Shown: one piece after another, positions 10,749 to 47,906 of the stretch
Position numbering within the stretch: the stretch's first letter is position 1
Layout: the number at the start of each line of letters is the position of its first letter
Source: Armatimonadota bacterium
Lineage (GTDB): Bacteria; Armatimonadota; Zipacnadia; Zipacnadales; UBA11051
Direction of reading: 5' to 3'
Assembly: GCA_013178155.1 (NCBI GenBank)
Contig: JABLXH010000003.1
Location: 62,001-126,000 of the forward strand
DNA length: 64,000 nt
Program-made: the position numbers and the translations under genes
Notes under the pieces: model-generated
What the model saw: only the letters and a program-made list of their open reading frames with translations
Databases searched by the model: none
What the model was told of the DNA's origin: nothing

Positions 10749-12593
10749 ATGAAGCAGTCTTCGCAGCCGTGTCTCAACGCCTTCGGGTTTGGGTGCAAGG
10801 GGTCGCTGCTCGTGGCGGCCCTGGTGTTCGTTCTGCTCCTGACCGGGCCGTTGTTCGCGGCTGACGAAAACCCCAGGTCTGGCCTACTCGCCCAGGCGGG
10901 CGACGCCGCCAACGCGCCCCAGCCATCCTCGTCAGCGACACCACCTGCTGCCATCTTTGGTATTCCCCTCCAGCCCGGCGATGTCATCTCGCTCACTGTG
11001 ATCGGTGAGCCGGACCTTACCGGTCAGTACACCATCCGGGAGGACGGCCTCATTGTTTTCCCGATACTGGGCGCCACCAAAGTCATTGGTTACACCCCCA
11101 CCCAACTCGCTGACCACCTGACCGAGTTGCTGGCCAAGTATGTGGTCAAGCCCGTCGTGGCCGTCAATGTCGTCTCGGCCATGCCCCGGGTGGTCTCGAT
11201 CTTTGGTGAAGTCGCACATCCCGGAGTATACACCCTCACCCAGTGTCCCACCCTGCTGTCGCTGCTGGCAGTCTCGGGGGGAGCCACTCCCAGCGGTGAC
11301 CTGGGTGAAAGCATCCTGGTCCGCAAGAACGAGACCGTTCGCCTCGTCCCGGAGGAAGCGACAGGACCACGTCTGCCGCGGGACATTCCCCTGGAGCAGG
11401 GGGATGCCGTATTCGTCCCCTCCAAACAGCTCAAGGGCGTCTACGTGATGGGCGCGGTGAAGGTGCCTGGCATCCTGGCGCTCACGGAAGCCCCTTCCGC
11501 AGGCCGCGCCATCGTTATGGCGGGTGGTCCCACCCCGGAGGGGGATGCGGCGGCCGCCTACGTCCTGCGCGGCGGCCAGCAACTGCCGGTGGATCTGACG
11601 CCCTACACGCAGGCCCTGCCCCCCAGTGGCTCTGCCCAAGACGTGCCACTCATAGCGGGCGATGTCCTGATGGTCCCGACCAAGAGCGACGCCATGGTGT
11701 ATGTGGTCGGACAGGTGATGACCCCAGGTCCCCAACCTTTCACCAAGTCGCCGACCGTTTCCGCCGCCGTGGCTCTGGCGGGTGGGATAACGGAGGCCGC
11801 CGACGGGCGGGGCAGCTATGTTTTGCGGCAGGGGGAGCGGGTACCGGTGGACCTCAAGGCCCTGCTCCAGGAGGGCAAGGCCGAGGCCGATGTAACTCTG
11901 CGGGCCGGTGACGTGGTAGTTATTCCGAAGCAGTTGCGGACCATCTATCTGGTGGGACAGGTTCTCAAACCCGGACCCTACCCGCTGGATGCGGCCGAGA
12001 ATGTGATGGCCGCCTGGTCTCAGGCCGGTGGGGCCACGCCGGAAGCCGATCTGCGCAATGTGATGTTGTTGCGCGGGGCTGAGGTCAAGCGCCTGGACCT
12101 CGAGGCACTGGTGGACAAGGGCGAGATGCAATACAACGTCGCACTGGAGCCGGGCGACCAGATTGTGGTGCCCCGGATCCTGACGCAGGTCTATGTGCTG
12201 GGCAGTGTCAACAAACCCGGAGCTCATCCCCTGCAGCCCGGCGACACGCTCATTGATCTCATCGCCCGCGCAGGTGGCCCCTCGCCCGCAGCCAACCCGA
12301 GTGCCATCCTGATCGCCCGCCGCGTTGAACCGTCTGCCGGCGAGGAGGCCGCGACGGGTACCGCAACCCCCGCCCCCAAGGGCCCTCCGACCCCCGCGCA
12401 GCGGGTGACCATGGCCATCGAGAAGGGCATTCGGGTGGATATGATGGACCTGGCCAAGGCCCAGGCGGGGGAAGAGGTTTTCGTGGCCCAGCCTGGAGAT
12501 GTGATTTTCGTGCCCGCCGTGCGTGCCGATCGAGGCATCAACTGGGTACAGACCCTGATTGGTATCGCCACAGGGCTGATCATTCGCAACTGA
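10749..12593 (+). CDS. Wza-like polysaccharide export protein with multiple SLBB domains
   Basis: A 614-residue outer-membrane/periplasmic export protein. A signal peptide with hydrophobic core LLVAALVFVLLLTG ends near LFAADE, and no lipobox cysteine is visible, unlike E. coli Wza. The Poly_export domain (about 70-150) begins FGIPLQPGDVISLTVIGEPD. It is followed by a series of SLBB-type repeats, each carrying a phrase like YVMGAVKVPGI, YVVGQVMTPGP, YLVGQVLKPGP and YVLGSVNKPGA. Around five repeats is more than the two seen in classical Wza and implies a longer periplasmic channel. The C-terminus WVQTLIGIATGLIIRN looks like the amphipathic or membrane-inserted end. The ATG at 10749 has GGGGTGAGAG upstream. 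It is first in an operon with the chain-length protein and BY-kinase. Confidence 0.88.
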   Translation: MKQSSQPCLNAFGFGCKGSLLVAALVFVLLLTGPLFAADENPRSGLLAQAGDAANAPQPSSSATPPAAIFGIPLQPGDVISLTVIGEPDLTGQYTIREDGLIVFPILGATKVIGYTPTQLADHLTELLAKYVVKPVVAVNVVSAMPRVVSIFGEVAHPGVYTLTQCPTLLSLLAVSGGATPSGDLGESILVRKNETVRLVPEEATGPRLPRDIPLEQGDAVFVPSKQLKGVYVMGAVKVPGILALTEAPSAGRAIVMAGGPTPEGDAAAAYVLRGGQQLPVDLTPYTQALPPSGSAQDVPLIAGDVLMVPTKSDAMVYVVGQVMTPGPQPFTKSPTVSAAVALAGGITEAADGRGSYVLRQGERVPVDLKALLQEGKAEADVTLRAGDVVVIPKQLRTIYLVGQVLKPGPYPLDAAENVMAAWSQAGGATPEADLRNVMLLRGAEVKRLDLEALVDKGEMQYNVALEPGDQIVVPRILTQVYVLGSVNKPGAHPLQPGDTLIDLIARAGGPSPAANPSAILIARRVEPSAGEEAATGTATPAPKGPPTPAQRVTMAIEKGIRVDMMDLAKAQAGEEVFVAQPGDVIFVPAVRADRGINWVQTLIGIATGLIIRN

Positions 12594-12654
12594 TACCGCA
12601 CAGGTCGCAGCAGCCGCGACACGCACTACTTGAACCCTGGGCTAGGCGGCTCCG

Positions 12655-14106
12655 ATGGAGTTCATCGAATACTACCAGATCATCCGCAGCCGCATCTGGA
12701 TCGCGGTCATGATGGCGGCCGCCGCCTTTACGGTGGTGACCGTCTATCAGCTCCTGCCCAACACCTCCTGGTCGGCGGAGGGACAGTTGGGGGTGCGGCC
12801 GGAGGCCCTGGGCGTCGTGCAGTCCTCGGGGAATACCGCCAACGTCGTGCAGAACCGGGAGTTCTGGGGAACCATCGAGCAGTTTGTCACCAGCCGCGAC
12901 ATCCGCGAACGAACCATAGCCGCCGCGCAACAGCAGGCGATCATCGAACCCTACCAGGCGGCCCGTATCAAGCCCTTCGTCTTTGAGCGCAGTAAGCGGG
13001 GCGACCTCTTCGTCATCCGCGGGACAGGACCGTCCGCGGAGGCAGCCCGGCAGATCGTCACCCTGGGCATGGAGATCATCGAGCAGGGCTGGGATGCGGT
13101 GCGGAAGGCGCCGTGCTTGGCGACCACGGAGCGGCTCAAGCAAAAGCTCGCCAGCCAGCGCCAGCTCATCCAGTCACTGGAACGTCAGATGGACCGGGTG
13201 CAGACCGGAACCACCGCGGGCCGGCCCACCGATCGCGTGACCTGGATCATGAACCAGATCAACGCCCTCCAGGGCAGCATCGCCAACGCCCGGACAGAGG
13301 TCAGCATCGCCCAGGACCGGGTGACGGCGTGGGCGACGCAACTCCAGGAAGAAGAGCGCCAGCGAGCCCAGGGCACCCTCCCCGCGGCGCCGACCGGACC
13401 CGTGGCCGCTCTCGAGGCACGGAAGCTGGAGCTTGAGCTCTCGCGGTCGCAGATGCTGGCCCATCGGACTGCTGACCATCCCGAGGTGGTGGCGCTGGAC
13501 CAGCAGTTGCGGCAGGTGACCCGACAACTGGACCAGGAGAAGGCCAAGGCCGCGAAGTCTGGCGGGACCTCGCCGACCGCCGTGATGTCTCCCTCACAAC
13601 AGCAGGCGCGGCTGGCAGAGATTGAGTTGCGGGGAGCTCAGCGGCGGCTGGATGCCATTGTGGCCGAGGAAGCCCGGCTGCGGGCCCAGGTGCCCGGTCT
13701 GCTGGCCCAGGCGCGGCGCTATGAGGACCTGGAGAACGAGCTGAAGACGGCAATGACGGAGCGGGCCGAAATCACCGCCAGCCTGCGGCGCGTGGAGGAT
13801 GAGGCCAGCCGCCTGGACACCACCCAGGACATCTATCCCCTGGGCGAGGCCACCAGCCTGCCCTCACCGAAGACATGGTCCAAGTACGCACTCATGGCCG
13901 TGGCGGCCACGCTGGCCGGCCTGGTCATGGGCTGCATGCTCATCTTCGCCCTGCACCAGATTGACCTGACCTTCAAGAACGAGGCCGAAGCCGAGCACCT
14001 GCTGGGCTACCCGGTCCTTGCCGGCATCCCCCGGACGGACATCGCCCTGGTGCCGGCGGCCCCGGAGGGTGTCGCCGAAGGCCCGGAGCCCGATCGCGGT
14101 GGCTGA
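12655..14106 (+). CDS. Wzz-type chain-length determinant (polysaccharide co-polymerase)
   Basis: A 483-residue inner-membrane protein with one membrane segment near the N-terminus (IWIAVMMAAAAFTVVTV) and one near the C-terminus (YALMAVAATLAGLVMGCMLI). Between them is a long periplasmic region rich in Glu, Gln, Arg and Ala that should form coiled coils (residues about 150-390). It begins MEFIEYYQIIRSR, typical of this family. The cytoplasmic tail after the second helix includes EAEHLLGYPVLAGIP, the usual link to a BY-kinase. No kinase domain is attached; the kinase is the next gene, 12 bp downstream. It sets chain length and couples export to kinase phosphorylation. Confidence 0.87.
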   Translation: MEFIEYYQIIRSRIWIAVMMAAAAFTVVTVYQLLPNTSWSAEGQLGVRPEALGVVQSSGNTANVVQNREFWGTIEQFVTSRDIRERTIAAAQQQAIIEPYQAARIKPFVFERSKRGDLFVIRGTGPSAEAARQIVTLGMEIIEQGWDAVRKAPCLATTERLKQKLASQRQLIQSLERQMDRVQTGTTAGRPTDRVTWIMNQINALQGSIANARTEVSIAQDRVTAWATQLQEEERQRAQGTLPAAPTGPVAALEARKLELELSRSQMLAHRTADHPEVVALDQQLRQVTRQLDQEKAKAAKSGGTSPTAVMSPSQQQARLAEIELRGAQRRLDAIVAEEARLRAQVPGLLAQARRYEDLENELKTAMTERAEITASLRRVEDEASRLDTTQDIYPLGEATSLPSPKTWSKYALMAVAATLAGLVMGCMLIFALHQIDLTFKNEAEAEHLLGYPVLAGIPRTDIALVPAAPEGVAEGPEPDRGG

Positions 14107-14118
14107 TAGAGGAGAGCA

Positions 14119-14808
14119 ATGCTTCGCAGCAATGAGGTGTTGTTAGGGCAGGACCCGCCGCACTCCAACTATCTGGAGGCCTATCGCCGCCTGCGCACGA
14201 CGGTGTTTGCGCTGCGCGACGAGACCCCCTTCCGCTCCTTGCTGATCACCAGCGCCGCCCCCAATGAGGGCAAGTCCGTCATCTCCATGAACATCTCCCT
14301 GCTTATTGCCCAGGCAGGCTTCCGCGTCATCCTGGTGGATGGTGACTTTGCCCACCCGGGTGTCCACCTGGAATGGGAGCTGCGGGAGGCGCCGGGGATC
14401 ACGGACGCCTGTTTGACCAACATGGACCCGGAGGCGATTATCCAGCCCACCGAACTGGACACCCTGCGAGTGGTGACCGCCGGGGCCGCCGCCTCGCGAG
14501 GCCCGGACCTGGCCAGCAGCCCGCAGATGCCGGCCATCATGCAGGCTCTGGCGGAGCGCTGCGATCTGCTCATCGCCGACAGCGCCCCGGTGCTGGGCTC
14601 GGCGGGCACCCTGCAGTTGGCCCGCATGGTGGACTGCGTGGTGCTGGTGGCGCGGGCGCGGGGCAATGTGGCGCCGGTGCGCCGGGCCCTGAAGCTGCTG
14701 AAGGACGTGGGGCGGGACCCCCGGGGGATCATTGTCAATGACATCCTCGATCAGGACACGCCGGCCCATTCCTACTACTACTACGGCAGCAACCCCAAGA
14801 CCCTCTGA
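14119..14808 (+). CDS. BY-kinase (CpsD/CapB-type tyrosine autokinase)
   Basis: A 229-residue P-loop ATPase of the bacterial tyrosine-kinase family. Walker A is in SAAPNEGKSVISMN (near residue 50), Walker A' is VILVDGDFAHPG, and Walker B is CDLLIADSAPVLG. The C-terminus carries the autophosphorylation cluster SYYYYGSNPKTL. It pairs with the Wzz-like membrane activator encoded immediately upstream, the split arrangement common in Gram-positives. Cycling between phosphorylated and free states would regulate export and chain length. A GAGGAGA ribosome site precedes the ATG. Confidence 0.9.
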   Translation: MLRSNEVLLGQDPPHSNYLEAYRRLRTTVFALRDETPFRSLLITSAAPNEGKSVISMNISLLIAQAGFRVILVDGDFAHPGVHLEWELREAPGITDACLTNMDPEAIIQPTELDTLRVVTAGAAASRGPDLASSPQMPAIMQALAERCDLLIADSAPVLGSAGTLQLARMVDCVVLVARARGNVAPVRRALKLLKDVGRDPRGIIVNDILDQDTPAHSYYYYGSNPKTL

Positions 14809-14841
14809 GATAGCCCTCCTGCCGCCCCGTTGCCGAACCCT

Positions 14842-14905
14842 CTTGATTTTGGCTTGAGTTTTGCTTGAAAAGACCTTGACATTTGACTTGTGCTTTGGCT
14901 AGACT
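14842..14905 (+). promoter_or_regulatory. PEP-CTERM gene promoter with 11-bp-phased CTTGA repeats
   Basis: CTTGA occurs at 14842, 14853, 14864 and 14875, exactly 11 bp apart, with CTTGT at 14887. The copy at 14875 forms the -35 element TTGACA (14876-14881); TAGACT at 14900-14905 is an 18-bp-spaced -10. Equal helical phasing on one strand is typical of OmpR/PhoB-type regulators that bind direct repeats. An overlapping sigma-54-like match, TGGCTT-N5-TTGCT, lies at 14850-14865 with GG and GC at the correct spacing. The gene start is at 14995. The same design occurs at 15940 and, on the other strand, at 24409. Confidence 0.6.
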
Positions 14906-14994
14906 TTACCTAACTGGGAGAGCATGCCGCATTACTTCATCACTCCTGTGCTCCGAACAGCAGAACTCGTGCCGTTCCCGGGGAGGCCACTCTG

Positions 14995-15756
14995 ATGAGA
15001 AAGACGATGTTGTGGAGCACAATACTGGTGCTGTTGCTGGCCGTCGGGGGAGCGGCGCAGGCGACTTTCAACAGCAGTGATTGGTTCCTATGGGACACAC
15101 TCACCTGGAGTTCGACCAACTCCGAGATCTACGCAACTGATGGCTGGGCCAATGCGAACACATCGTTTACGTGGGGGCTGAAGTGGACCTACAGTACGTC
15201 GCCTGTCTTCACATACTACTATCAGTTCAGCGTTCCTGAGAAAGACATCAGCCACTTTCTGATTGAGGTATCTCCTCAGCCGGACGAGAACCCGCCTTTC
15301 CCATTGGCCGACATATTCGGGGATGATGGCAGCTCTAATCCAGGCATCCCGACAACAATGTGGTCCCTGAAGTACGATGGGACAAGCACGTTACTTGAAG
15401 TCAGTTTCACAAGCAATATCGGCCCCGAGTGGGGAGACTTCTATGCCAAGGATGGTACGGATAAGCAAGACGACGGTACCCACCTTGATGTTTATGCGTA
15501 CAACACAGGCTTCACTTCTAGCGATGTAGACAGCCTGTGGGTCTGGAGCGATGTGATCGCGAATTCGGGCTGGACATTTGCTGATCCTTATAGCAACCAG
15601 GTAACCCTCAAACCGAATGAGATCTGTCGGCCGGATACATCAACAAATGGTGAAAACTTGCCACCGGTGCCTGAGCCGTCGAGTGTGGCGCTGTTGATCC
15701 TGGCTCTGGGGGCGGGGCTGTACAGCGGCGGGAAGCGGCTGCGGCGGAAGGCCTGA
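14995..15756 (+). CDS. PEP-CTERM sorting-domain protein 1
   Basis: A 253-residue secreted protein. The signal peptide is MRKTMLWSTILVLLLAVGG with cleavage near AQA-TF. The mature part is rich in Trp, Tyr, Ser, Thr and Asp and matches no enzyme family I know. The C-terminus has the exosortase signal: VPEPSSVALL, then a hydrophobic helix, then KRLRRKA. After export the exosortase encoded at 19446-20339 should cut at or near the PEP motif. GGGGAGG lies upstream of the ATG. The tail and the following terminator are nearly identical to those of the next PEP-CTERM gene. Confidence 0.85.
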   Translation: MRKTMLWSTILVLLLAVGGAAQATFNSSDWFLWDTLTWSSTNSEIYATDGWANANTSFTWGLKWTYSTSPVFTYYYQFSVPEKDISHFLIEVSPQPDENPPFPLADIFGDDGSSNPGIPTTMWSLKYDGTSTLLEVSFTSNIGPEWGDFYAKDGTDKQDDGTHLDVYAYNTGFTSSDVDSLWVWSDVIANSGWTFADPYSNQVTLKPNEICRPDTSTNGENLPPVPEPSSVALLILALGAGLYSGGKRLRRKA

Positions 15757-15820
15757 CCGCCAGGCAGACATATCAGCAAAGAACCCGGGCAGGGGCCAGA
15801 CGGCTCCTGCCCGTTGCTTT
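15659..15820 (+). repeat. PEP-CTERM tail + terminator cassette, copy 1
   Basis: This segment covers the last ~30 codons of PEP-CTERM protein 1, its stop codon and the downstream hairpin. It is closely repeated at 17095-17254: about seven substitutions in the coding part, a short difference just after the stop, and an identical stretch of about 50 bases over the hairpin. Identity continuing into non-coding DNA shows recent copying rather than selection on the protein alone. Confidence 0.85.
15786..15813 (+). terminator. Hairpin terminator after PEP-CTERM gene 1
   Basis: CGGGCAGGGGCC at 15786-15797 pairs with GGCTCCTGCCCG at 15802-15813 (12 pairs, one G-U) around the loop AGAC, followed by TTGCTTT. 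Flanking AGCAA and TTGCT could extend the stem. The T run is weak, so it may act as a terminator or an mRNA-stabilising hairpin. An identical copy is at 17220-17247. Confidence 0.65.
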
Positions 15821-15939
15821 CGCCCCGGCCAAAGCGGGCCTTGACCAGGACCACCGGAGCTCGGGGATAGACCAGCCGCTGACCGCCGGGCGTGACAGGC
15901 GACCGGCACTACTGTTCCCACCTCGCCGCCGAGATCTTC

Positions 15940-15977
15940 CTTGACACAGCCTTGAGTTTTCCTTTAGTATTTCATGA
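15940..15977 (+). promoter_or_regulatory. PEP-CTERM gene promoter with 11-bp-phased repeats
   Basis: CTTGA at 15940 and 15951, CTTTA at 15962 and CATGA at 15973 are each 11 bp apart. TTGACA (15941-15946) and TAGTAT (15965-15970) form a promoter with an 18-bp spacer, so transcription should start near 15977. The spacer (CCTTGAGTTTTCCTT) is nearly the same as sequences in the promoters at 14842 and 24409. It should drive the gene at 16179. Confidence 0.6.
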
Positions 15978-16028
15978 GAGTGTGGAGGCCGCCTGCCCGT
16001 AAGGTCCGGGAGGAAGACCGCCACGCTC
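15978..16028 (+). other. Structured 5' leader of PEP-CTERM gene 2
   Basis: Starting at the predicted transcription start, GAGTGTGG (15978-15985) can pair with CCACGCTC (16021-16028), seven Watson-Crick pairs and one G-U. Inside, GGTC (16003-16006) pairs with GACC (16016-16019). About 150 further bases separate this from the start codon at 16179, making a leader of about 200 nt. No known riboswitch core was recognised. It may stabilise the message or regulate translation. Confidence 0.35.
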
Positions 16029-16178
16029 ATGATGGGGGTTCCGGGGGACTGACACTCACGCGATCTGCCACCACACCCCTCCCCAGCGGTCAGCCGAAGA
16101 CGTTACGGGCAACCAGGCACTTCATTGTCTCACATACGGCGTGATGCCACATTGTCACGCGCACGGGAGGGAGCGCGG

Positions 16179-17192
16179 ATGTACAGACTGGCAGCAGTGC
16201 TCACAGTGGTCGTGCTGCTCGCTGTGCCCCTGGTGGCGGTAGCAGCCCCATTCAACTGGGGGGCTTACTACGACTCCAGCACGAAGCAGTACAAGATCAA
16301 CCCAGCGGATCCGGTCTATTACGGGGTCAATGACAACAACAACCTCGCCCTTCCAGATGGCAGAACCAGATCGGGATGGGGTGGGGAATGGTTCGACATC
16401 GAACAGCTCTGGTTTCATCTGGAACGTGACGCCAGCAACAAGGTAACTCGGTTGGACTGGCTTTTGGTTACCAGCTATGCCGGTTTCGAACCCTATGAAT
16501 GGCACAGCATTGACTGGAGCAAGACAGATCCCTCGAGCAACGGGGCCATCAACCACGACACCAGCTATGCCATGGAGCGCGACAATCGCAGTACCGCCAA
16601 CAGCCACAACTGGGCGTACCGGTGCAATCCGGTGGTTGCCCTGAGCTTCGATGGGTCCTCAGCGTACACGTGGGCGCTAGTGCTTGACATGGGTGAACTT
16701 GCCAACGGTAAGACCGACTGGACCAACCAGAGCCGAGGCGACATCAGCACCTATGCCGGTCTCTACAAAGTCAACAACCCCACTGCGTGGCAGGGGGCGT
16801 GGATAAACGGAGAGTACCGCACGGATATTCCGGCAGACCTGGACACCATCAATGACGCCGCCCTGATCAAGAGCGGGTCTGCTGGCAGCTCCACTCGCAG
16901 CTTCGCGTACCTGGAGCTGGACGCCGACCAGGTATACACCAATGAGCTGTGGCGGCAAGACTACAACTGGGCCTGGCAGGGCTCCATTGACCTGACTGGC
17001 ACCAATATCGCCGCAACCGGCCTGGGGGCCAGTGTAGCCCCCTGGTGTGGTAACGACCAACTGAAGTTCAACACACCAATTGACTGGGAAACCGCGCCAC
17101 CGGTACCCGAGCCTTCCAGTGTGGCGCTGGTGATCCTGGCCCTGGGGGCGGGGCTGTACGGCGGCGGGAAGCGGCTGCGGCGGAAGGCCTGA
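16179..17192 (+). CDS. PEP-CTERM sorting-domain protein 2
   Basis: A 337-residue secreted protein with signal peptide MYRLAAVLTVVVLLAVPLVA and cleavage near VAA-PF. The mature region is again rich in Trp, Tyr, Asn, Asp and Ser, with no recognised catalytic motif. The C-terminus reads VPEPSSVALVIL, a short hydrophobic helix and KRLRRKA, the exosortase recognition signal. The ATG at 16179 has GGAGGGAG upstream and puts the signal peptide at the start; an in-frame upstream start at 16125 would add 18 non-hydrophobic residues. Its tail and terminator match those of PEP-CTERM protein 1, but the mature domains do not look alike. Confidence 0.85.
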   Translation: MYRLAAVLTVVVLLAVPLVAVAAPFNWGAYYDSSTKQYKINPADPVYYGVNDNNNLALPDGRTRSGWGGEWFDIEQLWFHLERDASNKVTRLDWLLVTSYAGFEPYEWHSIDWSKTDPSSNGAINHDTSYAMERDNRSTANSHNWAYRCNPVVALSFDGSSAYTWALVLDMGELANGKTDWTNQSRGDISTYAGLYKVNNPTAWQGAWINGEYRTDIPADLDTINDAALIKSGSAGSSTRSFAYLELDADQVYTNELWRQDYNWAWQGSIDLTGTNIAATGLGASVAPWCGNDQLKFNTPIDWETAPPVPEPSSVALVILALGAGLYGGGKRLRRKA

Positions 17193-17254
17193 CGGTCATA
17201 GACATATCAGCAAAGAACCCGGGCAGGGGCCAGACGGCTCCTGCCCGTTGCTTT
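17095..17254 (+). repeat. PEP-CTERM tail + terminator cassette, copy 2
   Basis: Partner of the repeat at 15659-15820. It covers the C-terminal PEP-CTERM signal of protein 2 and the downstream hairpin. Beyond about 17255 the two copies differ. Confidence 0.85.
17220..17247 (+). terminator. Hairpin terminator after PEP-CTERM gene 2
   Basis: Same hairpin as at 15786: stem 17220-17231 with 17236-17247, loop AGAC, followed by TTGCTTTGGG. It lies 28 bases after the stop codon. Confidence 0.65.
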
Positions 17255-17368
17255 GGGTCGGGGAGAGATCCACTCCGGGCACGAATGGCGTCGGGGAGAG
17301 CCCCTGGACCCACGCTGCAGACGCAGGCGATGGGGCAAAGGCGATGCTCTGGGCGGTGTGGGGGTGGA

Positions 17369-17656
17369 TCAGACAGCCAGGGCGATCGGGAAGGGCGCCT
17401 CGGCCGCGTAGGGGTCCTGGTCGGCACCAGACAGCGCGGCCTCGCGGCGCAGGAGATCGCGAAGTCCATGGAGAGTGACCTCGGCCACCAGGACGCGCTC
17501 CCGCGTTTCGCCCTCCGCCCGCATGCGATGCAGGGTGCGGGTCATCTGACGCTCGAGCTCCTCCAGATGGGCGATGGTGTCGCGCAGGTCGGCGACCTGC
17601 TCGCGGAAGGCGTCGCGGGCGGGCTGGGAGCTGTGGGATCGGTGAGCGGCAAACAT
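17369..17656 (-). CDS. Small coiled-coil protein of unknown function
   Basis: A predicted 95-residue soluble protein on the minus strand between PEP-CTERM genes 2 and 3. Residues about 15-70 (FREQVADLRDTIAHLEELER followed by QMTRTLHRMRAEGETRERVL) have a regular heptad pattern of hydrophobic residues with many Glu and Arg, so a coiled coil is likely; no signal peptide is seen. The ATG at 17656 with GGAG upstream is preferred; a GTG at 17686 would add ten residues. A promoter resembling those of the PEP-CTERM genes lies upstream (17716-17756) with a palindrome over its start site. I do not recognise the family. A cytoplasmic accessory or regulator of the sorting system is only a guess. Confidence 0.5.
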   Translation of the reverse strand: MFAAHRSHSSQPARDAFREQVADLRDTIAHLEELERQMTRTLHRMRAEGETRERVLVAEVTLHGLRDLLRREAALSGADQDPYAAEAPFPIALAV

Positions 17657-17689
17657 GGCTGCGAAGGCTCCGCGGGATGGTGTCACAAC

Positions 17690-17716
17690 TTGGCCACATT
17701 TATCATAGCACTGATA
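17690..17716 (-). promoter_or_regulatory. Candidate operator: shared 16-mer plus inverted repeat
   Basis: The 16-mer TTGGCCACATTTATCA (17690-17705, plus strand) is followed so that TATCA (17701-17705) and TGATA (17712-17716) form an inverted repeat with a 6-base spacer. The same 16-mer with TATCA-N5-TGATA occurs at 63840-63865. Here it covers the predicted transcription start of the coiled-coil gene, a good position for a repressor. Confidence 0.4.
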
Positions 17717-17756
17717 GCCTACTGTGCCAGCAACGCGACCTCAAGGTTTCCGCAAG
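17716..17756 (-). promoter_or_regulatory. Weak promoter with 11-bp-spaced CTTGA-like repeats
   Basis: On the minus strand, CTTGC (17756-17752), CTTGA (17745-17741) and GTTGC (17734-17730) are each 11 bp apart. TTGAGG (17744-17739), a 17-bp spacer and TAGGCT (17721-17716) make a weak promoter. It resembles the promoters at 14842, 15940 and 24409 and points at the coiled-coil gene. Confidence 0.35.
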
Positions 17757-17839
17757 TTTGGTGGGGATAGGGGGAATGGGGGAGGGTAACTGAAGCACCA
17801 ACCCGGATCTGAACGGGGAGATAGATAGGGGAATGGTTA

Positions 17840-17865
17840 GGGGCCACCTCGAGTGAGGTGGCCCC
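17840..17865 (-). terminator. Hairpin downstream of PEP-CTERM gene 3
   Basis: GGGGCCACCTC (17840-17850) and GAGGTGGCCCC (17855-17865) form a perfect 11-bp stem with a four-base loop, 29 bases after the stop codon of the minus-strand PEP-CTERM gene. No T run follows on either strand, so it may protect the 3' end or act as a weak bidirectional terminator. Confidence 0.6.
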
Positions 17866-17893
17866 TGGTCGTTACGTCAGGTGAGGTCGTGGC

Positions 17894-18613
17894 CTAGCTC
17901 TTGCGGCGGCGGAAGTAGAACGGCACTCCCAGCGCCAGCGCGAGCAAGGCATAGGTGCCAGGTTCGGGGAGGTAGAAGCCCTCCTCGGTCTCGATGGTGA
18001 TGTCAAACTGGATGCGCCGGCTCTCAAAGTAGCCAGGGTCAATGTCTGGGTCAAAGCCAAACGTGACGCCTCCATAGGCATTGAGAGAGGACTCAAGGTC
18101 CGATAACCAAGTCAAGCCACTAGCAATAGTTAGGTCCAGCTGACTTGGTTCAGACGGCCACGTAGTCCAGTCCAGCAGATTCACAGTTGTCCATCCCGTA
18201 CTATCGAAAAGATCTGCTGGAGGTGGTCCATCAGTTGTGTACCACGCGCTGTTAGAGCCTGTCCGGAAGCCAGCAGGAGGTGATGGGTCAGTAATGAGCG
18301 TCCAACTAGCAGCGTGAGTACCATTCAGAATGTCAAGGTACAGAACGTCAGTTGACCCGACACCGCCTGTAGCATTCCAGACACCATAGATTGTGAGCGT
18401 GGCAGCGGTCACGTTGTAGTGAGACGCATTGCCCTTTGTGTTGGGATAGAGCAACTCCCACTGAAAGGCCTCTGCCTGGGAGAGGCTGCGAAGATCCCGA
18501 TCGATGGGAATGTCGCTGAAGGTGTACACAGTGGAATAGGCGACCGTTGGCAGTAGTCCAACGATCATCGTGGCCACAGTAAGAAACAAAAGTCTTCCTC
18601 GCAAGAGTTTCAC
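17894..18613 (-). CDS. PEP-CTERM sorting-domain protein 3
   Basis: A 239-residue secreted protein. The signal peptide includes LLFLTVATMIVGLLPTVAYS. The mature part is rich in Thr, Asp, Trp and Tyr with a beta-sandwich look (LDLTIASGLTWLSDLE, RRIQFDITIETEEGFY) but no recognised domain. The C-terminus is LPEPGTYALLALALGVPF followed by YFRRRKS, an exosortase signal that differs from proteins 1 and 2. It starts at GTG with AAAGGAAAG upstream. It lies 212 bp downstream of epsI in the same direction and may be transcribed with the exosortase operon; no clear promoter was seen in that gap. Confidence 0.82.
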   Translation of the reverse strand: MKLLRGRLLFLTVATMIVGLLPTVAYSTVYTFSDIPIDRDLRSLSQAEAFQWELLYPNTKGNASHYNVTAATLTIYGVWNATGGVGSTDVLYLDILNGTHAASWTLITDPSPPAGFRTGSNSAWYTTDGPPPADLFDSTGWTTVNLLDWTTWPSEPSQLDLTIASGLTWLSDLESSLNAYGGVTFGFDPDIDPGYFESRRIQFDITIETEEGFYLPEPGTYALLALALGVPFYFRRRKS

Positions 18614-18825
18614 CTCGCTTTCCTTTCAGATTGCCGTTAAGTGGCGATCCTTCTCGTCTTGACCCCCATCTTGTCCCTGGCGCGGCCTGGGTCATTGGGC
18701 CCGGCCAGGTTTACAGCGTGCGGTGGGTGCCAGACGGGGCGCCCAGTGTCTGGGGCCCACCAGAATTGGGTATTGCTCGGGTCATTCCCCCTTTCGCCGT
18801 CCGCGTCGCGGCCTGCCAGTTCAGC

Positions 18826-19467
18826 TCAAGGGCGCAGGCACTGCTGGACATGGGGCAGGACCAGCGCCATGAACTCGGTCACCAGCCCCGTGGCCTTGCC
18901 CACGTCCGCCTCACCCAGGAGTTTCTGGTTCACCAGTATCAGGGCCGTGGTGTTGCCACCCTTGCGACCCTGCTGCAGCATCATCTGTAAGTGCCGATCC
19001 ATCCAGGTCGGGCTGGTCTGCCTGGCGTCGGTGAAGATGTAAAGTTCCACGATGCGTTCATTGTCATGCCTCAGGCCGTGCAGGATCGTGGCGTGAGCAG
19101 TCTGGCCCCTCGTCCCATAAGGGAACTCCAATGTGGTCTCGCGAGTGATCTCGTAACCCAGGCCCTTGAGGCAGTTTTGCGGCGGATGAAGCTGGTCCCA
19201 GCCGTCGCTGAAGACGACCGAGAAGCCCAGCTTCTCGCCCCTGGAATTGGTATAAGAACGCTGCACCAGCGTGGACTGTGACAGCACCTTGACGACCTTG
19301 GGGTCGGTCTCGAGGTCCTGGCCGGTCCAGTCGCCGATCTTCATCGGAATGGTGATTGCCTTGACGGTCCGGGCCGAGCCGGCAACGGATTGCCGGGCCA
19401 CCAGGCGGTCGCCGATGACCAGCAGGACCGGGAACCCCAGGGCGATCAGCCATCGGTAGGAGAGCAT
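18826..19467 (-). CDS. epsI: EpsI-family exosortase-associated protein
   Basis: A 213-residue protein with one N-terminal membrane segment (MLSYRWLIALGFPVLLVIG) and a periplasmic domain. It matches the exosortase C-terminal/EpsI family: IPMKIGDWTGQDLETDP near residues 39-55 and GWDQLHPPQNCLKGLGYEI in the middle, which contains the conserved His-Pro and Cys. The ATG at 19467 overlaps the end of the exosortase gene by 22 bases; an upstream in-frame start would lengthen the overlap without a better signal. In some lineages this domain is fused to exosortase; here it is separate. Its exact role in sorting is not established. Confidence 0.87.
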   Translation of the reverse strand: MLSYRWLIALGFPVLLVIGDRLVARQSVAGSARTVKAITIPMKIGDWTGQDLETDPKVVKVLSQSTLVQRSYTNSRGEKLGFSVVFSDGWDQLHPPQNCLKGLGYEITRETTLEFPYGTRGQTAHATILHGLRHDNERIVELYIFTDARQTSPTWMDRHLQMMLQQGRKGGNTTALILVNQKLLGEADVGKATGLVTEFMALVLPHVQQCLRP

Positions 19468-20339
19468 GGTGTCACCCACCTGGTGATGTAGAACAAGCCG
19501 ATAAGGCCGAAGACAAAGACGACGACTCCCGCCCACTCGTGATAGAGACCGCTGGCGGCCTGCGGCCCGAAGGTCTTGCCCATGAGCAAGGTGATGTCAA
19601 TGCGCAGGGTATTGATCAATACCGCGAGAGGCAGGCTGGAGAGGAAGATGATAGCTTTGCGCCAGGTAGAGACCTGGGCAAAGTACGCAAAGAGCGCCCC
19701 GCCGGCCATGAGGGCGACGACGGAGCGGATGCCGCTGCAAGGCATGTCCACCATCAGGCGGTAGTCACGCACGAGGATCTCGGTGCCGTTGACCGTGGTG
19801 GGCAGGCCCAGGGCGATGGGTAACCAGGCGGCCATGCGCGTGGCCAGCAGGCGCATGGAAAAGATGAAGGGATCGAGTGCCGACGACAGCGGCAGCATGA
19901 AGACCAGGAAGGCGATGGGGAAAGCCAGTTCCCGGGCGAAGGCGCGGCCAAGGAGCAGCAGGACCATGCCCCAGACCATGACCAGGAAGGAGAGGGCATA
20001 GGGGTAGTTGATTCCGGTCCAGCTACCCAGGAAGTAGAGCGCGGCAGCCAGGGCGAGGACCAGCAGGCCCCAGTTGGACCCATCGATGGGCAAGCTGCGC
20101 AGGTGGTCCTTCTTCAGCCAGATTATGTACGCGGACAAGGGCGGGATGAGCATGCCACCGCCCGAATAGGGCTCCAGGGGCCAGCGCATGATCATCCACT
20201 TGAGGGGCTGGAAGTAAGCAACGGCTAGCAGGACGATAAGCCCCACGGCCGGCGCCCAGGCAGCCCATGAGGCCCGCAGGTCGGGTTTTCGGATCATCTC
20301 GGCAGACTGTTCCATGCAGCAGTCACTCATTGGCAACAC
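19446..20339 (-). CDS. xrt: Exosortase (PEP-CTERM protein-sorting transpeptidase)
   Basis: A 297-residue polytopic membrane enzyme. The exosortase catalytic residues are visible: Cys201 in VDMPCSGIRSVVAL, Arg246 in LINTLRIDITLLMG and His267 in LYHEWAGVVVF. About eight hydrophobic segments place these near the periplasmic side. It should recognise PEP-CTERM tails, cut them and attach the proteins to a cell-surface carrier, by analogy with sortase. It lies 18 bp after a GT-C gene and overlaps epsI. Likely substrates here are the proteins at 14995, 16179 and 17894. The start could also be the ATG at 20330. The subtype is not assigned. Confidence 0.93.
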   Translation of the reverse strand: MLPMSDCCMEQSAEMIRKPDLRASWAAWAPAVGLIVLLAVAYFQPLKWMIMRWPLEPYSGGGMLIPPLSAYIIWLKKDHLRSLPIDGSNWGLLVLALAAALYFLGSWTGINYPYALSFLVMVWGMVLLLLGRAFARELAFPIAFLVFMLPLSSALDPFIFSMRLLATRMAAWLPIALGLPTTVNGTEILVRDYRLMVDMPCSGIRSVVALMAGGALFAYFAQVSTWRKAIIFLSSLPLAVLINTLRIDITLLMGKTFGPQAASGLYHEWAGVVVFVFGLIGLFYITRWVTPCSPTDG

Positions 20340-20357
20340 GCAGCGGCGAGCCGCCGC

Positions 20358-21974
20358 CTAGATACTGGGAGCAGGCACTCCGGGCGGAATGTACAGACTG
20401 CCCGGGAAGCGGGTCTTCTCGACACGCTTCAGGTTCAGAATGGCTTTCTGGCGAGTGACCAGGGCCCGCTGCCAGTCTTCCATACGCTCCTCCCGCGGGA
20501 AGCGGAGGAGTTGGGGCGAGAGGTAGACCAAGTCAAGCTTGATGCCAGCCTTCTGCATCTGCCCCAGCTCCGCAATGGAGTTGGGGAGGAAGATGGTGGT
20601 CTGGTTCGCATACCAGGTGGCCCACCAGGGGATGTCGGTAGCGACGACCTTGTACTGTTTCTCCTCGGCCAGAGCTTTCAGGATGGGCACTGCCGGGTGC
20701 TGGCGGGCCGCCGGCATGACGAACAGGTAGTTCAGGAAGGGATAGGCCAAGACGAGCATCCAGCCCAACAGGATGAAGAAGCGCTTGCGGTCCATGACCG
20801 ACGGCGAGGGAGTTCGCTCGGCATCCCGCTGCAGGTACTGGTCAATGAGCTCCACGAACCAGGAGACCGCGATGATGGCGACGATCGGCCCGAAGGCCAG
20901 GATGAGGTTGGTGACCGGGACGTAAAGACAAAGGACCAGCGCGGTCAGGACGATGGCCAGCGCCAGGCACCAGTGGAACACCACATAGCGTTTGCGGGCC
21001 CAGGCCAGCATGAGACCGGCCAGGAAGAAGGGCATGACGTACAGGTTCACGACGTTGGGCAGCGCGGCGTAGAAGGTGTTCATGCCCTGAATGAACTTCT
21101 TGAGCATATCCGGGCCGTTCCGCATGGCTTCCAGCAGGGGCGACGGTGGGACCGTTGAGAACTCGCGGTAGAGTACCTGCCGGGGCGAGAAGTCGGTGCC
21201 CATGATCATCTCGTAGCTCATGAGCGAGATGAATGGTTTCCCGACGATGAGGCTGGAGCGGATGATCCATGGCGCCACCACAATGACGAAGACCAGCACC
21301 GAGAGGCCGGCGAGCTTCCAGCGAGACGGTCTGGGCGCAAGGAGGACTAGATACACGATGACCGCGGGGAGGAGGGCAAGGGTCTCATAGCGGGTCAGGT
21401 AAAGCAGCCCGAGAAGCAGCCCAATCACTACCGGCCAATGCCAGGCGGTCTGCTTCTCGGACCGTCCCCACCAGAGCAGGAGACCACAGAGGCTGGTGAT
21501 GAGAAAGGCCAGGAGGGTGATTTCCAGGCCAGAGACCATCTGCTCCAGCAAGGGCACGGAGATGAGACAGATGACTACCCCGAAGATGCCCACGGGGTCG
21601 CTAAAGAAGAAGCGTCCGACTAAATAGACTACCACCAGAGTAAGCAGGTAGAAGAAGATGGATCCGAGGATAACCGTCTTGTCGGTGGCACCGAAGAGTT
21701 TCATGGCCCCTGCCAGGCAGGCAATATAGACCGGCCCACGGCCCAACTCCGGGGCGTTCTCAACACCCGGCTTGATCGCCAGTCGCAGAGGCGTCAGAGC
21801 GGACGTAGTGAAACCCTTCCCTTCGGCGAGGTTGCGGGCTATCTGGGCGTAGTCAGCCGCATTGACATCAGTCAGATGCTCAAACTTGGCGACAAAGACC
21901 ACCATCACCAGGATGAAGGTGCCAAAGACGAGCAGTGCGCGCCGCAAGAGGTAGTCGAACAGAGTGATGGACAT
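20358..21974 (-). CDS. GT-C membrane glycosyltransferase (GT39-like)
   Basis: A 538-residue membrane protein. The first loop contains DVNAADYAQIARNLAEGKGF, the acidic motif of ArnT/PMT-like enzymes, followed by APELGRGPVYIACLAG. About ten hydrophobic segments are followed by a C-terminal soluble domain (from about 430) with ILKALAEEKQYKVVATDIPW. It sits between the CapD-like gene and exosortase in the minus-strand operon. It may glycosylate PEP-CTERM proteins (which are rich in Ser/Thr) or the polysaccharide; this is inference from position. Confidence 0.78.
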   Translation of the reverse strand: MSITLFDYLLRRALLVFGTFILVMVVFVAKFEHLTDVNAADYAQIARNLAEGKGFTTSALTPLRLAIKPGVENAPELGRGPVYIACLAGAMKLFGATDKTVILGSIFFYLLTLVVVYLVGRFFFSDPVGIFGVVICLISVPLLEQMVSGLEITLLAFLITSLCGLLLWWGRSEKQTAWHWPVVIGLLLGLLYLTRYETLALLPAVIVYLVLLAPRPSRWKLAGLSVLVFVIVVAPWIIRSSLIVGKPFISLMSYEMIMGTDFSPRQVLYREFSTVPPSPLLEAMRNGPDMLKKFIQGMNTFYAALPNVVNLYVMPFFLAGLMLAWARKRYVVFHWCLALAIVLTALVLCLYVPVTNLILAFGPIVAIIAVSWFVELIDQYLQRDAERTPSPSVMDRKRFFILLGWMLVLAYPFLNYLFVMPAARQHPAVPILKALAEEKQYKVVATDIPWWATWYANQTTIFLPNSIAELGQMQKAGIKLDLVYLSPQLLRFPREERMEDWQRALVTRQKAILNLKRVEKTRFPGSLYIPPGVPAPSI

Positions 21975-22043
21975 GCGATCGTTTGGCCTCTGCTGTTGTG
22001 GTTTGGTAGGATGTGCGATGACTGCTCGTCAGACTTAGAGTGC

Positions 22044-23917
22044 TCAGGCTGTTGTCGCGACCAGATATTCCGGAAGCTCGATAGTCCCGTTCGTTGCCTC
22101 CTTCAATACACGGCGCACTCGCACCTCATCGCAGAAGGCGACGGCCTCGCGGAGGGTGCGGAGAGCAATGTTTAGCTCCAGACACTGCTCTCGATGCCCG
22201 TTCGGCACGATGCGGCGGATCCGGGGGTTGTTAGTGGGTTGGAGCACTTCCCAGGGACTGGATAGCGCTTCGTGCAGTTTTTCCCCCGGCCGGAGGCCGA
22301 TGAAGGCGATGGCGCCCGGCGCGTCCGGGTCCTTGCCCTCCATCTCCAGCACTGCCCGAGCGATGGAGAGTATCTTCAGGGGCTCTCCCATGTCCAGGAC
22401 GAAGATGTCGCCCCCTTGGCCCAGGGCCCCCGCCTGCAAGACCAGGAAGGAAGCCTCTTCAATATGGTCATGAAGAAGCGGTCTACATCAGGATGGGTAA
22501 CCTGTAGCGGTCGTCCCATGCGAGCACAGCGCTGGAAAATCGGCACGACGCTGCCAGCACTGCCCAGAACATTGCCGAAGCGCACCGCCATGAACTTGGT
22601 CTTCGAACTCCCGTTACGAGAGGCGACGATGCGCTCACACAGGCGCTTGGTGGCGCCCATGACGCTGGTCGGTTCGACCGCTTTGTCGGTGGACACGAAG
22701 ATGAAGCGCTCCACACCATAGTCAGACGCCAGGTTCACGACCAGTTCGGTGCCCAGAACGTTGTTCCGCGCCGCCTCGACCGCGTTGACCTCCATCAAGT
22801 AGACGTGCTTGTGTGCCGCAGCGTGGATGACGACTGCGGGGCGATAGCGGTCAAACATCTCCTCCATGGCCTCCCGCGAGGTGATGTTGGCGATGACCGG
22901 GACAAACTCGATGCGCGGCCACTTCTCGGTAAGCTCGTAATAGATGGAATGGACACGGTTCTCGCCACGGCCTAGCAAGACGACCCGTTCCGGCCCGTAG
23001 CGACAGAGCTGGCGGCAAATCTCGCTGCCGATCGAGCCTCCGGCGCCAGTCACCAGAATGGTGCGTCCTTCGATGTAGTTATCGGGCAGGGCCAGATTCA
23101 GGCAGCTGGTGTCCCGGCCAATCAGGTCACCCAGGTCAACATCGCGGACACTTACGGCCTGGTCCTCCCCGGTGAGCAGCTCCAGCAGCCGCGGGACCGT
23201 GCGCACACGAACGCCCAGCTCACGCCCCTGGTCCATAACGCGCTGGATTACTGTGCCCGCAACGGAGGGTAGAGCAAGGATGATCTCATCTACGTTGTAG
23301 CGAGCTACGAGCTCCGCAAGGTTGTCACCAGTGCCTAACACGCGCTTGCCGGCAATGATCATGCTCTGAAGGCAGCGATCATCGTCAACGAAACCAACGA
23401 TTTCAATGTGAGACTGGGGGTCATCGCGGGTCTGCCGGACCAGCATGACGCCGGTCTGGCCCGCTCCATAGACCAGGGCCCGAACGCGATCGGCCTTGGG
23501 CAGCGTGGACGCATGGTAGAGGTGGCGTCGGAGTGTGCGCCAGGCGAAGCGAGTGGCCGCCACAGCGAGGATCGCAAAGCCCCACGACATGGCCACGACA
23601 CTGCGGGGATAACCCAAGGGTGTGGTCATGACAACGAGGCCGAACAGACCAAAGGTGATCGTGGCGCCGGCCACGATGACCAGAAGAGCATCTGCAGAGG
23701 CATACTCCCAGATGCGGTTGTACAACCCCAGCAGAAGTGCTGTGGCCACGAAGATGCACGCAAGGGCTGGTGTGGTGTAAAGGTAGATGCGCCAGTAGGA
23801 GGCCGGGATGTCTCCATCAAAGCGAAGCCAGAAGGCACCGTATATGCACAGGTGCAGAATCGCGAGGTCAACCAACCCCAAGGCGATCCTGTGCCAGTTG
23901 AGCATGCGCGGCGTCAT
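22044..23917 (-). pseudogene. CapD/FlaA1-type nucleotide-sugar 4,6-dehydratase, frameshifted
   Basis: Two adjacent frames together give a complete protein of about 623 residues after removing two bases. The N-terminal part has four membrane helices and a CoA-binding-like domain (ALVYGAGQTGVMLVRQTRDD). The SDR domain follows: TILVTGAGGSIGSEICRQL, HAAAHKHVYLMEVN, and the active-site region FVSTDKAVEPTSVMGATKR. After HPDVDRFFMTI the frame breaks and resumes as QAGALGQGGDIFVLDMGEP and GLRPGEKLHEAL. The break is an extra AT at 22461-22466. This could be a true mutation or a sequence error. The product would make a 4-keto-6-deoxy UDP-HexNAc precursor. The ATG at 23917 with GAGGGAGA upstream is the chosen start. 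Confidence 0.82.
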
Positions 23918-24371
23918 CTCATTGTCTCCCTCAGAACAAGGAGTTCGTGTCCGCAACAGTGCTAGTTAGGCCGGCACCGAACCAGATCGGAAGTTGCAGT
24001 TTTCTGCCCCCTGATTGGCTAGGCCAGCTATGGATGCCAGCAGTGCCAATCCGGAAAGAAGTGGGTGGGAGAAGATCCTAAACAGGTAGAGGTCGGACTG
24101 GGCAAGTCCCCCCGAAAGGTTACCCGCGCATAGCGCCTGGAGAGGTTTGTTGCCCCGCAAGACCATTGTTCATTGCCCCCCTCGACAACGAGCAAATGGA
24201 TCGCATCACCTGGGCCCTGCTGGATACCGCACAGGCCAGGCAACGGCTCAACATGTGGGTAGCCCCTTGTCCTGCCAGGTCAGGCCAAAGCGCGATGAGG
24301 TGGGGATCAGACCGTGGTCACGGCGTTACCGGGATCTGAGCAGTAAGTAGACTGTAGACAACCCCCAATTC

Positions 24372-24409
24372 TCAAGGTAAGTATAAGCAACACTCAAGGA
24401 AGTGTCAAG
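24372..24409 (-). promoter_or_regulatory. Promoter of the capD-exosortase operon with 11-bp-phased CTTGA repeats
   Basis: On the minus strand CTTGA repeats end at 24405, 24394 and 24372, with CTTAT at 24383, all exactly 11 bp apart. TTGACA (24408-24403), a 17-bp spacer and TATACT (24385-24380) form a near-consensus promoter. It points toward capD, GT-C, exosortase and epsI with a leader of about 460 nt. Its sequence closely resembles the PEP-CTERM gene promoter at 15940: both read TTGACAC, then CCTTGAGT, then CTT. Confidence 0.6.
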
Positions 24410-36865: not shown

Positions 36866-39146
36866 GGACCAGGCTATCGCTGTGGTGCTAGCGGCTGGAC
36901 ATGGACAACGCATGCAGCCCATCACTTCTTGGATACCGAAGCCCCTGGTGTCAATAGATGGCTGCCCCATACTAATCAGCAATGTGAAGCACCTCTATGC
37001 TGCAGGCTTCAGGCGCATCTACGTCGTCTATGGTCGGCCTACCTCTGTCATCCCTGACTTTCTCGCAACAACTGATCTCGCCGGAGCCCAGGTAGAGTGC
37101 GTCTTTCAGAAGGAACAACGTGGGACGGGCGATGCCCTCTTAACGGCGATGAACGCTTGTGGTGACTTCGAGCATTGCCTGTTGATGGTGGGTGATACGC
37201 TTTACCCGCAGGGATACATCGCTGATATCTGGAGCCATTATGCCTGCAGCAACCTGGATGCCTGTTTGCTACTGAAGGAGCTACCGTTCCACCAACTCGC
37301 CAGATCCTCACTCGTGGTTCTCGACGACCGCCGGATGGTCAGATCAGTGATACCGAAACCTGCCCCCAATACCATCCGTAGTCACAAGAGCCGTCTGGCA
37401 GATGCTTCTCTTCATGTCTACGGCTGTCTTTTCAAAGACTATCTTGAGCGCACGACCCTTTCGGGCACAGGTGAACTTGAGATCGCGGGCGCGCTGAGCA
37501 ACTGGATTGCCGACGGAGGGCGGGTTGGAGGGTTAGTTCGTCCCGTAGCCCAGCATGTCACAACTGTGCAGGACTTTGTCATCCACAACTTGCCCTTCGG
37601 TAGACGTCTTGTTGCACTGAGTGAGATCGAGAGAGCCATAGATGATGCTTCCGACGAAGACATATCAGGTCATGTGCGCTCCCTTAGCCAAGATGATCTA
37701 CCGTTTGCCTATCGTCGCTTGAAGGCACTGGCGAGTCAGCCCATGGACCACATACGGCGTGCCAGGACCTTGGCGATCATCAGTGAGTTGCTGAGGGTTC
37801 ATGCATGTCCTTTGGCCTCGGCCGCAGCCCACTGTTCTGACGACAACAACGGTACGCTCTCGCCCATCGAGCGGATCGCGCGACTTGAGCAAAGACTCGA
37901 AGACCAGGGTTTCTCGCCGGAGATATGTCATCACCTGGCAGTCTCCTACGCTCGCTACAGTAACGAGATCGTGAGCGAGAACGCTCTTGCCGCAGCTCTC
38001 TCGCGTGCCGTGGACACCGCGCAGTCGACCCATTTTGCCCAAATGGTCACGGTGGACATACCGGCTCGCATTGCTTTCTCAAGCTCACAGGGGTCTGACC
38101 TTTCCTATGTGATTGAGGAGAAGAGCGCGGTGATCCTCAACTGCGCGATCAAGGTAGGGGGGCAATACCCTGGCCATATCGTCATTGAGCGGATTCCTGA
38201 GAAGCGAGTTGATCTTTGGGCATGTGACAATGACGCAAGAGCAAGCATTACAGACTTTGATGATCTGTTGGCGCCGGTTGCTTGCGATGATCGAACCATC
38301 CTGCTCAGATCGGGCCTCCGATTCAGCGGGATAGTGACGCCTGAACGTTACCTGTCCTTGGAGCAGTGGTTGGCGTCGAGCGGCGGGGGTTTCCGTGTGG
38401 AGCTGCGTTGTAGTGTACGCCAGGGTTCAGGCTTGGGCTGCAGCGCAATCCTGGCTGCAGGCCTCATCCGGGGTTTGAGGGATTTCGCTGGGCTTGAGAC
38501 TTCTATGGAAGAGCTTCTGGCAAGGGCCTATTGCTGTGAACGGTCCTACGGCAGAAGTGGTTATCAGGATGTTATTGGCGGGGCTATGGGTGGCATGAAG
38601 TTGATCCAGGCCGATGCAACCACAGGGCTCTTCGCGCCGAAGATAGAACGTATTGAGCTGGTACCAGAGCTGTGCAAAGGTATAAGAGAACATCTTCTGA
38701 TCTTTTACACTGGACGTCCGCACCTCAACAGTCCCTACCTCCTGACGATACCCGCCAAGTACTTCACTCGCAGTGGTGATTACCTATTCGCTTACGAGAA
38801 CGGTAAGCAACTCACATATGCCATGGCCAAAGCACTGCACCGCGGTGACTGGAAGACCATGGGAAATCTTGTGAGTGAGTACTGGGATGACCGGGAGTAT
38901 TTTGAAGAGGGTGTTACGCCAGACTCTGCGGCAATCCATCGGGAGAGGTTGAAGCTATGGAGTCATGGCACTGCTCTCTGTGGCAGCGGCCATGGGGGGT
39001 ATATGATGGTTGTACTCAGGGAGGGGTGCCGTGAAGACGTAACGCGGTATCTCAGGTCATGCGGGGTCCAGCCAGAAGACATACTAGACTTCGAGATTGC
39101 TGAACACGGGATTCAGTCTCACGTAGATGGGGCAGCAGGGGTATAG
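36852..39146 (+). CDS. Bifunctional nucleotidyltransferase / GHMP sugar kinase (second fusion)
   Basis: A 764-residue fusion. Residues 1-235 are a RmlA/ManC-type sugar nucleotidyltransferase with LAAGHGQRMQPITSWIPKPL (13-32), YVVYGRP, RGTGDALL and LLMVGDTLYPQGY. A helical linker spans about 240-400. The C-terminal GHMP kinase (about 410-764) has QGSGLGCSAILAAGLI near 522-537 and CGSGHGGYMMVVL near 708-720, most like fucokinase or D-glycero-D-manno-heptose 7-phosphate kinase. The order resembles Bacteroides Fkp (L-fucose kinase/GDP-fucose pyrophosphorylase), but the N-terminal domain is of another family. It should salvage a free sugar or heptose into an NDP-sugar. The ATG at 36852 follows GAGAGGGGG. 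The next gene overlaps by 20 bases if its ATG is used. Confidence 0.82.
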   Translation: MRSDEDQAIAVVLAAGHGQRMQPITSWIPKPLVSIDGCPILISNVKHLYAAGFRRIYVVYGRPTSVIPDFLATTDLAGAQVECVFQKEQRGTGDALLTAMNACGDFEHCLLMVGDTLYPQGYIADIWSHYACSNLDACLLLKELPFHQLARSSLVVLDDRRMVRSVIPKPAPNTIRSHKSRLADASLHVYGCLFKDYLERTTLSGTGELEIAGALSNWIADGGRVGGLVRPVAQHVTTVQDFVIHNLPFGRRLVALSEIERAIDDASDEDISGHVRSLSQDDLPFAYRRLKALASQPMDHIRRARTLAIISELLRVHACPLASAAAHCSDDNNGTLSPIERIARLEQRLEDQGFSPEICHHLAVSYARYSNEIVSENALAAALSRAVDTAQSTHFAQMVTVDIPARIAFSSSQGSDLSYVIEEKSAVILNCAIKVGGQYPGHIVIERIPEKRVDLWACDNDARASITDFDDLLAPVACDDRTILLRSGLRFSGIVTPERYLSLEQWLASSGGGFRVELRCSVRQGSGLGCSAILAAGLIRGLRDFAGLETSMEELLARAYCCERSYGRSGYQDVIGGAMGGMKLIQADATTGLFAPKIERIELVPELCKGIREHLLIFYTGRPHLNSPYLLTIPAKYFTRSGDYLFAYENGKQLTYAMAKALHRGDWKTMGNLVSEYWDDREYFEEGVTPDSAAIHRERLKLWSHGTALCGSGHGGYMMVVLREGCREDVTRYLRSCGVQPEDILDFEIAEHGIQSHVDGAAGV

Positions 39147-41129: not shown

Positions 41130-41131
41130 GA

Positions 41132-43284: not shown

Positions 43285-43299
43285 AGATGGCGGCTAACC

Positions 43300-47903: not shown

Positions 47904-47906
47904 ACT

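Follow-up and report, generated by a model that had tools for sequence, protein, structure and literature searches.

CTTGA direct repeats at 11-bp spacing on the promoters of two exosortase operons and PEP-CTERM genes of an Armatimonadota bacterium

Introduction

In Proteobacteria, PEP-CTERM genes are under the control of PrsK/PrsR and sigma54 (PMC1569441), and their dependence on RpoN has been demonstrated (PMC9850573). The Desulfovibrio regulator DVUA0057 binds PEP-CTERM targets (PMC3333781). A PEP-CTERM regulatory element was found only in Proteobacteria, and other regulators and motifs elsewhere were described as still awaiting discovery (Haft 2006, PMC1569441). Here we analyze a 64,000-nucleotide stretch from an Armatimonadota bacterium (contig JABLXH010000003.1, positions 62,001 to 126,000; hereafter the window), in which CTTGA direct repeats precede PEP-CTERM genes and an exosortase operon. 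The window lies on a 135,635-bp contig (C135), and the draft genome totals 5.53 Mb. We found no description of a CTTGA code for exosortase genes in the open-access papers searched.

Phased direct repeats are familiar from other systems. Regulators of the OmpR/PhoB family recognize direct repeats in which 7-bp units are separated by 4 bp, and PhoP of M. tuberculosis binds more tightly to triple and quadruple repeats (PMC4832192, PMC4415409). At Caulobacter pilA, CtrA recognizes TTAA-N7-TTAA over the -35, and additional upstream sites lower and delay expression (PMC11264516).

Results and Discussion

The window contains three arrays of CTTGA boxes (A, B and C; Table 1). All three lie where the initial annotation had placed them, and its claim of exact 11-bp spacing fails at a single step, from 14875 to 14887 in array A, which is 12 bp while the other steps are 11. 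It had also proposed that one repeat of each array supplies the -35 TTGACA, with a -10 17-18 bp away. A consensus scan blind to the boxes agreed: the top three sigma70-like promoters between 14800 and 24450 are those at arrays A, B and C, with the structures TTGACA-18-TAGACT, TTGACA-18-TAGTAT and TTGACA-17-TATACT, respectively. The -10 lies 23-25 bp downstream of the first base of the box that bears the -35, and the second box therefore occupies the spacer. Boxes are mostly spelled CTTGACA at the -35 and CTTGAG or CTTGAT at other positions. Additional boxes extend upstream in array A and in two arrays elsewhere on the contig (array D at contig 43501 and array E at contig 50853), and across the -10 in arrays B and C. 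Each promoter carries an operator of two or more helically phased units. No RNA elements were found in the leaders examined.

We next consider how the boxes are distributed. CTTGA pairs at a spacing of 11 occur 10 times on C135 against 0.27 expected, the strongest over-representation among 5-mers at spacings of 6-33; spacings of 22 and 33 are also high (5 each). A 4th-order Markov null gave a mean of 0.25 such pairs and a maximum of 1, and all 10 pairs are intergenic, though C135 is about 90% coding. The excess is weaker in the window alone with one mismatch allowed (9 vs 3.7 expected; reached by 2 of 100 shuffles). Window sites served to define the motif, so independent evidence comes not from its spelling but from where it falls in the rest of the genome. 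The whole genome was scanned by patterns, not by a matrix. CTTGAN6CTTGA has 16 matches genome-wide (5 for the reversed control), 10 of them on C135. When a -10 at the right distance is added, six matches are left, all on C135, with none for the control; this reversed-pattern control is imperfect because TTGA..TANNNT itself resembles a promoter. The exact form CTTGACAN4CTTGAG occurs three times, in each case on C135, and triple boxes with at most two mismatches occur 19 times (control, 1), 11 of them on C135. Since C135 makes up only 2.45% of the genome, the binomial chance of this clustering is 1e-8 to 1e-13.

The initial annotation had looked to a genome-wide scan for hits before other PEP-CTERM genes, and such hits exist. 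C135 carries two complete exosortase systems; the second lies at contig 42355-50853 and likewise comprises a PEP-CTERM gene and promoters with CTTGA boxes. Beyond the window, C135 has four extra CTTGA promoter sites. Those at contig 50816 and 50618 precede the second operon (GHMP kinase, glycosyltransferase, EpsI, PMT and exosortase), the array at contig 43464-43501 precedes a PEP-CTERM gene, and the promoter at contig 7348 lies ahead of a pair of genes whose tails resemble PEP-CTERM, weakly in one case. The seven promoter regions are alike only in their boxes, which rules out recent duplication of one promoter. The proposed shared promoter code for the exosortase operon and its substrates thus stands, while its scope was drawn too narrowly, as the regulon exceeds the window. 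CTTGA boxes sit on the promoters of two exosortase operons and of most substrate genes on C135, and from the sequence one regulator, probably of the PhoB/OmpR type, seems to switch the surface-coat system as a unit.

An HTH_36 protein (contig 50969-51832) and a small MerR/excisionase-like protein (contig 52065-52514), both encoded immediately ahead of the second exosortase operon, are possible local regulators.

When the tails were made into a profile, it picked out PEP-CTERM genes on several contigs besides C135; the box pair is absent upstream of those with checkable upstream sequence. Separately, contig C157 has a reverse-oriented CTTGA array (77466-77492), without a promoter match, that immediately precedes a gene with a PEP-CTERM tail; an OmpR-type regulator gene lies nearby. 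We rejected the idea that C135 is a contaminant: the tetranucleotide profile of most of it fits the other contigs as well as they fit each other (0.66). One part of its polysaccharide region, C135 100000-120000 (window ~38000-58000), has lower G+C and a deviating profile and may be a foreign island.

Like the PrsK/PrsR-sigma54 system, this locus has a common upstream element that would tie PEP-CTERM genes to one two-component regulator. The PrsR-sigma54 element, however, is an NtrC-type site with a -24/-12 promoter, whereas here an 11-bp direct repeat is combined with a -35/-10 promoter, and, unlike in that system, the exosortase operons themselves carry the element. Upstream of the PEP-CTERM genes we found no convincing -24(GG)/-12(GC) site of the form GG-N10-GC (best matches, 2-4 mismatches), so the PrsR-like, sigma54-dependent regulator that had been suggested as one possibility is not supported. 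The CTTGA array is a candidate PEP-CTERM control element outside the Proteobacterial scheme that spans both exosortase operons and substrates. If this is true, the sorting system and its cargo would be kept in step without sigma54.

An OmpR/PhoB-type reader, as first proposed, fits the arrays best. They are head-to-tail direct repeats at 11 bp, within the 10-11 bp of OmpR/PhoB-type operators. The OmpR-family DNA-binding domain PF00486 has 10 matches in the genome, one of them on C135. The initial annotation had noted that no regulator gene lies in the window; this one lies about 49 kb before it. Its best match is PhoB and its neighbors are a PhoR-like kinase, a phosphate porin and pstS/pstC, and together they form a complete Pho locus (phoB-phoR, phosphate porin and pst; contig 12331-21882). 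Several Pho genes on C135 are preceded by their own 11-bp phased CTTAA arrays (CTTAACATGCCCTTAATGGGGCCATAACAATGGGTTAAA before pstS). C135 holds two codes of the same build, CTTAA on Pho genes and CTTGA on exosortase genes: sister codes on one contig, one for phosphate and one for the surface. The CTTAA arrays on phoB-phoR-pst support an OmpR/PhoB-type reader for CTTGA, but point to a PhoB paralog rather than PhoB itself; a paralog is a reasonable though not proven reader, and no single gene stands out for the role.

Taken together, the sequence makes it rather probable that an OmpR/PhoB-family regulator reads the tandem operator and jointly turns on both exosortase operons and the PEP-CTERM genes of C135. 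In this model, the operator is fused to a sigma70 promoter, CTTGACA-N4-CTTGAG-N7to9-TAnnnT, with more 11-bp-phased boxes upstream or across the -10. The reader would be a response regulator with a winged helix-turn-helix, binding head to tail with one subunit per box along one helix face and touching RNA polymerase at the -35. When bound, it would activate both operons and the PEP-CTERM genes together. Any extra boxes would adjust how tightly the reader binds and when it acts, much like the additional CtrA sites of Caulobacter pilA.

Several observations weigh against this model. The near-consensus -35 elements speak against an activator being strictly required. No arrays are present at the genome's third exosortase locus, on contig C171. 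For the approximately nine other OmpR-type regulator genes in the genome, there is neither linkage to the sites nor a clear set of CTTGA boxes of their own. At CTTGA sites the last box stands about 13 bp before the -10, compared with about 16 bp at Pho sites. Finally, among 36 exosortase regions scanned in relatives there was no excess of arrays except for one pilin promoter that falls inside such a region, so conservation of the exosortase/PEP-CTERM target set is not shown.

The same promoters could be read as repressor operators, a serious contender although we give it somewhat less than even weight. An oligomerizing regulator, of OmpR type or other, would cover the -35, the spacer and, at two sites, the -10/+1, silencing strong promoters until a signal arrives. 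The hexamers TTGACA/TATACT are near consensus, boxes cover the spacer at every site, and arrays B and C cross the -10 to reach about +2. In contrast, arrays A, D and E reach back to about -69, as is more typical of activator sites, and the +22 position, which would overlap the -10, is not enriched among sites in the order. Activation is only slightly favored over repression. Both readings require a dedicated direct-repeat binder, which we consider very likely; as they share this claim, their probabilities overlap.

If PhoB itself read CTTGA as a variant pho box, the exosortase and PEP-CTERM genes would belong to the phosphate-starvation regulon. Both phoB-phoR and pst are on C135, and both codes are 11-bp phased CTTRA arrays; as in PhoB-PhoP regulons, the repeats run head to tail, often three or four in a row. 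However, the CTTGA boxes differ from this genome's own pho boxes, with no overlap at the fourth base, which is A in 11 of 11 pho-site boxes counted and in no exosortase-site box (Fisher 1e-8, from rough counts). CTTGA boxes also sit on a near-consensus -35 and about 3 bp nearer the -10, and their targets are exosortase, PEP-CTERM and pilus genes rather than phosphate uptake. Because the targets of the C135 phoB are spelled CTTAA, PhoB is probably not the CTTGA reader, and we regard this reading as unlikely.

We think it equally unlikely that there is no dedicated regulator, the sites being strong sigma70 promoters of the lineage that repeat the -35 word TTGA in their spacer, or else the mark of an alternative sigma factor. 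The -35 is itself the first box, and in relatives some unrelated genes have the two-box promoter too. But exact full boxes in strict 11-bp phase stand as far as 33 bp upstream of the -35, at -47, -58 and -69, positions that a sigma factor does not read, and the code is almost confined to C135 although the genome has many promoters. Least likely is another direct-repeat binder such as the MerR/excisionase-like protein: its gene is linked to two CTTGA promoters, and head-to-tail binding to direct repeats is known for MerR-like proteins of the BldC type (PMC5859096), but the protein gave no BldC match and the 9-bp BldC unit, AATTNNNNC (PMC5859096), does not match the 11-bp, CTTGAGTTTTG-like unit here.

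How far the CTTGA code extends was assessed in relatives. Across 41 genomes of the order, the two-box promoter occurs 23 times in relatives against 8 for the control (p about 0.005), while the rest of the phylum is near background (47 vs 31). The sites in the order also show an excess of further boxes at -11 and +33 (4 each vs 0.2 expected). Seven of the 23 matches lie directly before Flp pilin or TadE/TadG-like genes; these include four pilins, one with a Flp_Fap match that falls short of the curated cut-off and three recognized by pilin-like sequence alone. Within the genome studied here, one Flp-like gene (on contig C50) has the box pair, and a Tad operon on contig C203 carries a pair of CTTGAG boxes spaced by 33 bp and followed 16 bp later by TATAGT. 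The initial annotation had tied the code to exosortase/PEP-CTERM promoters, but it also marks Flp/Tad promoters in the order. A better description than a PEP-CTERM-specific code is one for surface structures in this order, which serves exosortase systems here, although the Tad/Flp link rests on few sites. The code ties exosortase systems to a pilus-gene code in relatives and names the exact bases to mutate.

By analogy, the closest working parallel would be CtrA at Caulobacter pilA, which shares an OmpR-family reader, 11-bp spacing, overlap with the -35, extra upstream sites and a Flp/Tad pilin target. It differs in having TTAA rather than TTGA and scattered sites rather than a regular 11-bp array, and it belongs to an unrelated lineage, the Alphaproteobacteria. 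More tentatively, an undescribed OmpR/PhoB-family regulon reading CTTGA at 11 bp may govern surface assembly across the order (Tad/Flp, and here two exosortase/PEP-CTERM systems), having possibly been born from the pho box by a change from CTTAA to CTTGA.

Two further observations come from relatives. An OmpR regulator linked to a site in genome G033 was rejected as chance, the site lying inside a gene on the opposite strand. In two relatives of one genus, the two-box promoter is kept before a Roadblock/LC7 gene (G016 C4:11258 and G020 C36:2967).

Features of the window

The arrays, their promoters and the genes behind them are collected in Table 1, with gene starts assigned by eye. Exosortase and EpsI genes occur together with PEP-CTERM substrates, which marks the locus as an exosortase system. 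A weaker box set before the coiled-coil gene had been counted as part of the same code. It scores 12/15 and the best promoter there is TATGAT with a different -35; lacking the common promoter geometry, it is not supported as part of the code and is probably due to chance.

Table 1. Arrays, promoters and genes in the window (window coordinates)
Feature	Position	Strand	Details
Array A	14842..14891	+	CTTGA at 14842, 14853, 14864, 14875; CTTGT at 14887
Array A promoter	14876-14881; 14900-14905	+	-35 TTGACA inside the 14875 box; -10 TAGACT
PEP-CTERM gene behind array A	14995..15756	+	Tail PEPSSVALLILALGAGLY..KRLRRKA
Array B	15940..15977	+	CTTGA 15940, CTTGA 15951, CTTTA 15962, CATGA 15973
Array B promoter	15941-15946; 15965-15970	+	-35 TTGACA; -10 TAGTAT
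PEP-CTERM gene behind array B	16179..17192	+	ATG likely 16179; longer open frame starts 16125
Weak box set	17730..17756	-	17756 CTTGC, 17745 CTTGA, 17734 GTTGC; precedes coiled-coil gene
PEP-CTERM gene closing exosortase operon	17894..18613	-	
EpsI/DUF3485 exosortase-associated protein	18826..19536	-	
Exosortase	19446..20339	-	Exosortase_EpsH; TIGR02602 above cut-off; no named Xrt subtype above cut-off
PMT_2 glycosyltransferase-like membrane protein	20358..21974	-	Exosortase operon
First gene of exosortase operon, behind array C	22376..23956	-	Nucleotide-sugar enzyme, polysaccharide synthesis (Polysacc_synt_2); start likely near 23917
Array C	24372..24409	-	CTTGA 24409-24405, CTTGA 24398-24394, CTTAT 24387-24383, CTTGA 24376-24372
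Array C promoter	24408-24403; 24385-24380	-	-35 TTGACA; -10 TATACT

The two neighboring PEP-CTERM genes behind arrays A and B both end in identical terminator-like hairpins (15786-15813 and 17220-17247), and their promoters differ beyond the boxes.

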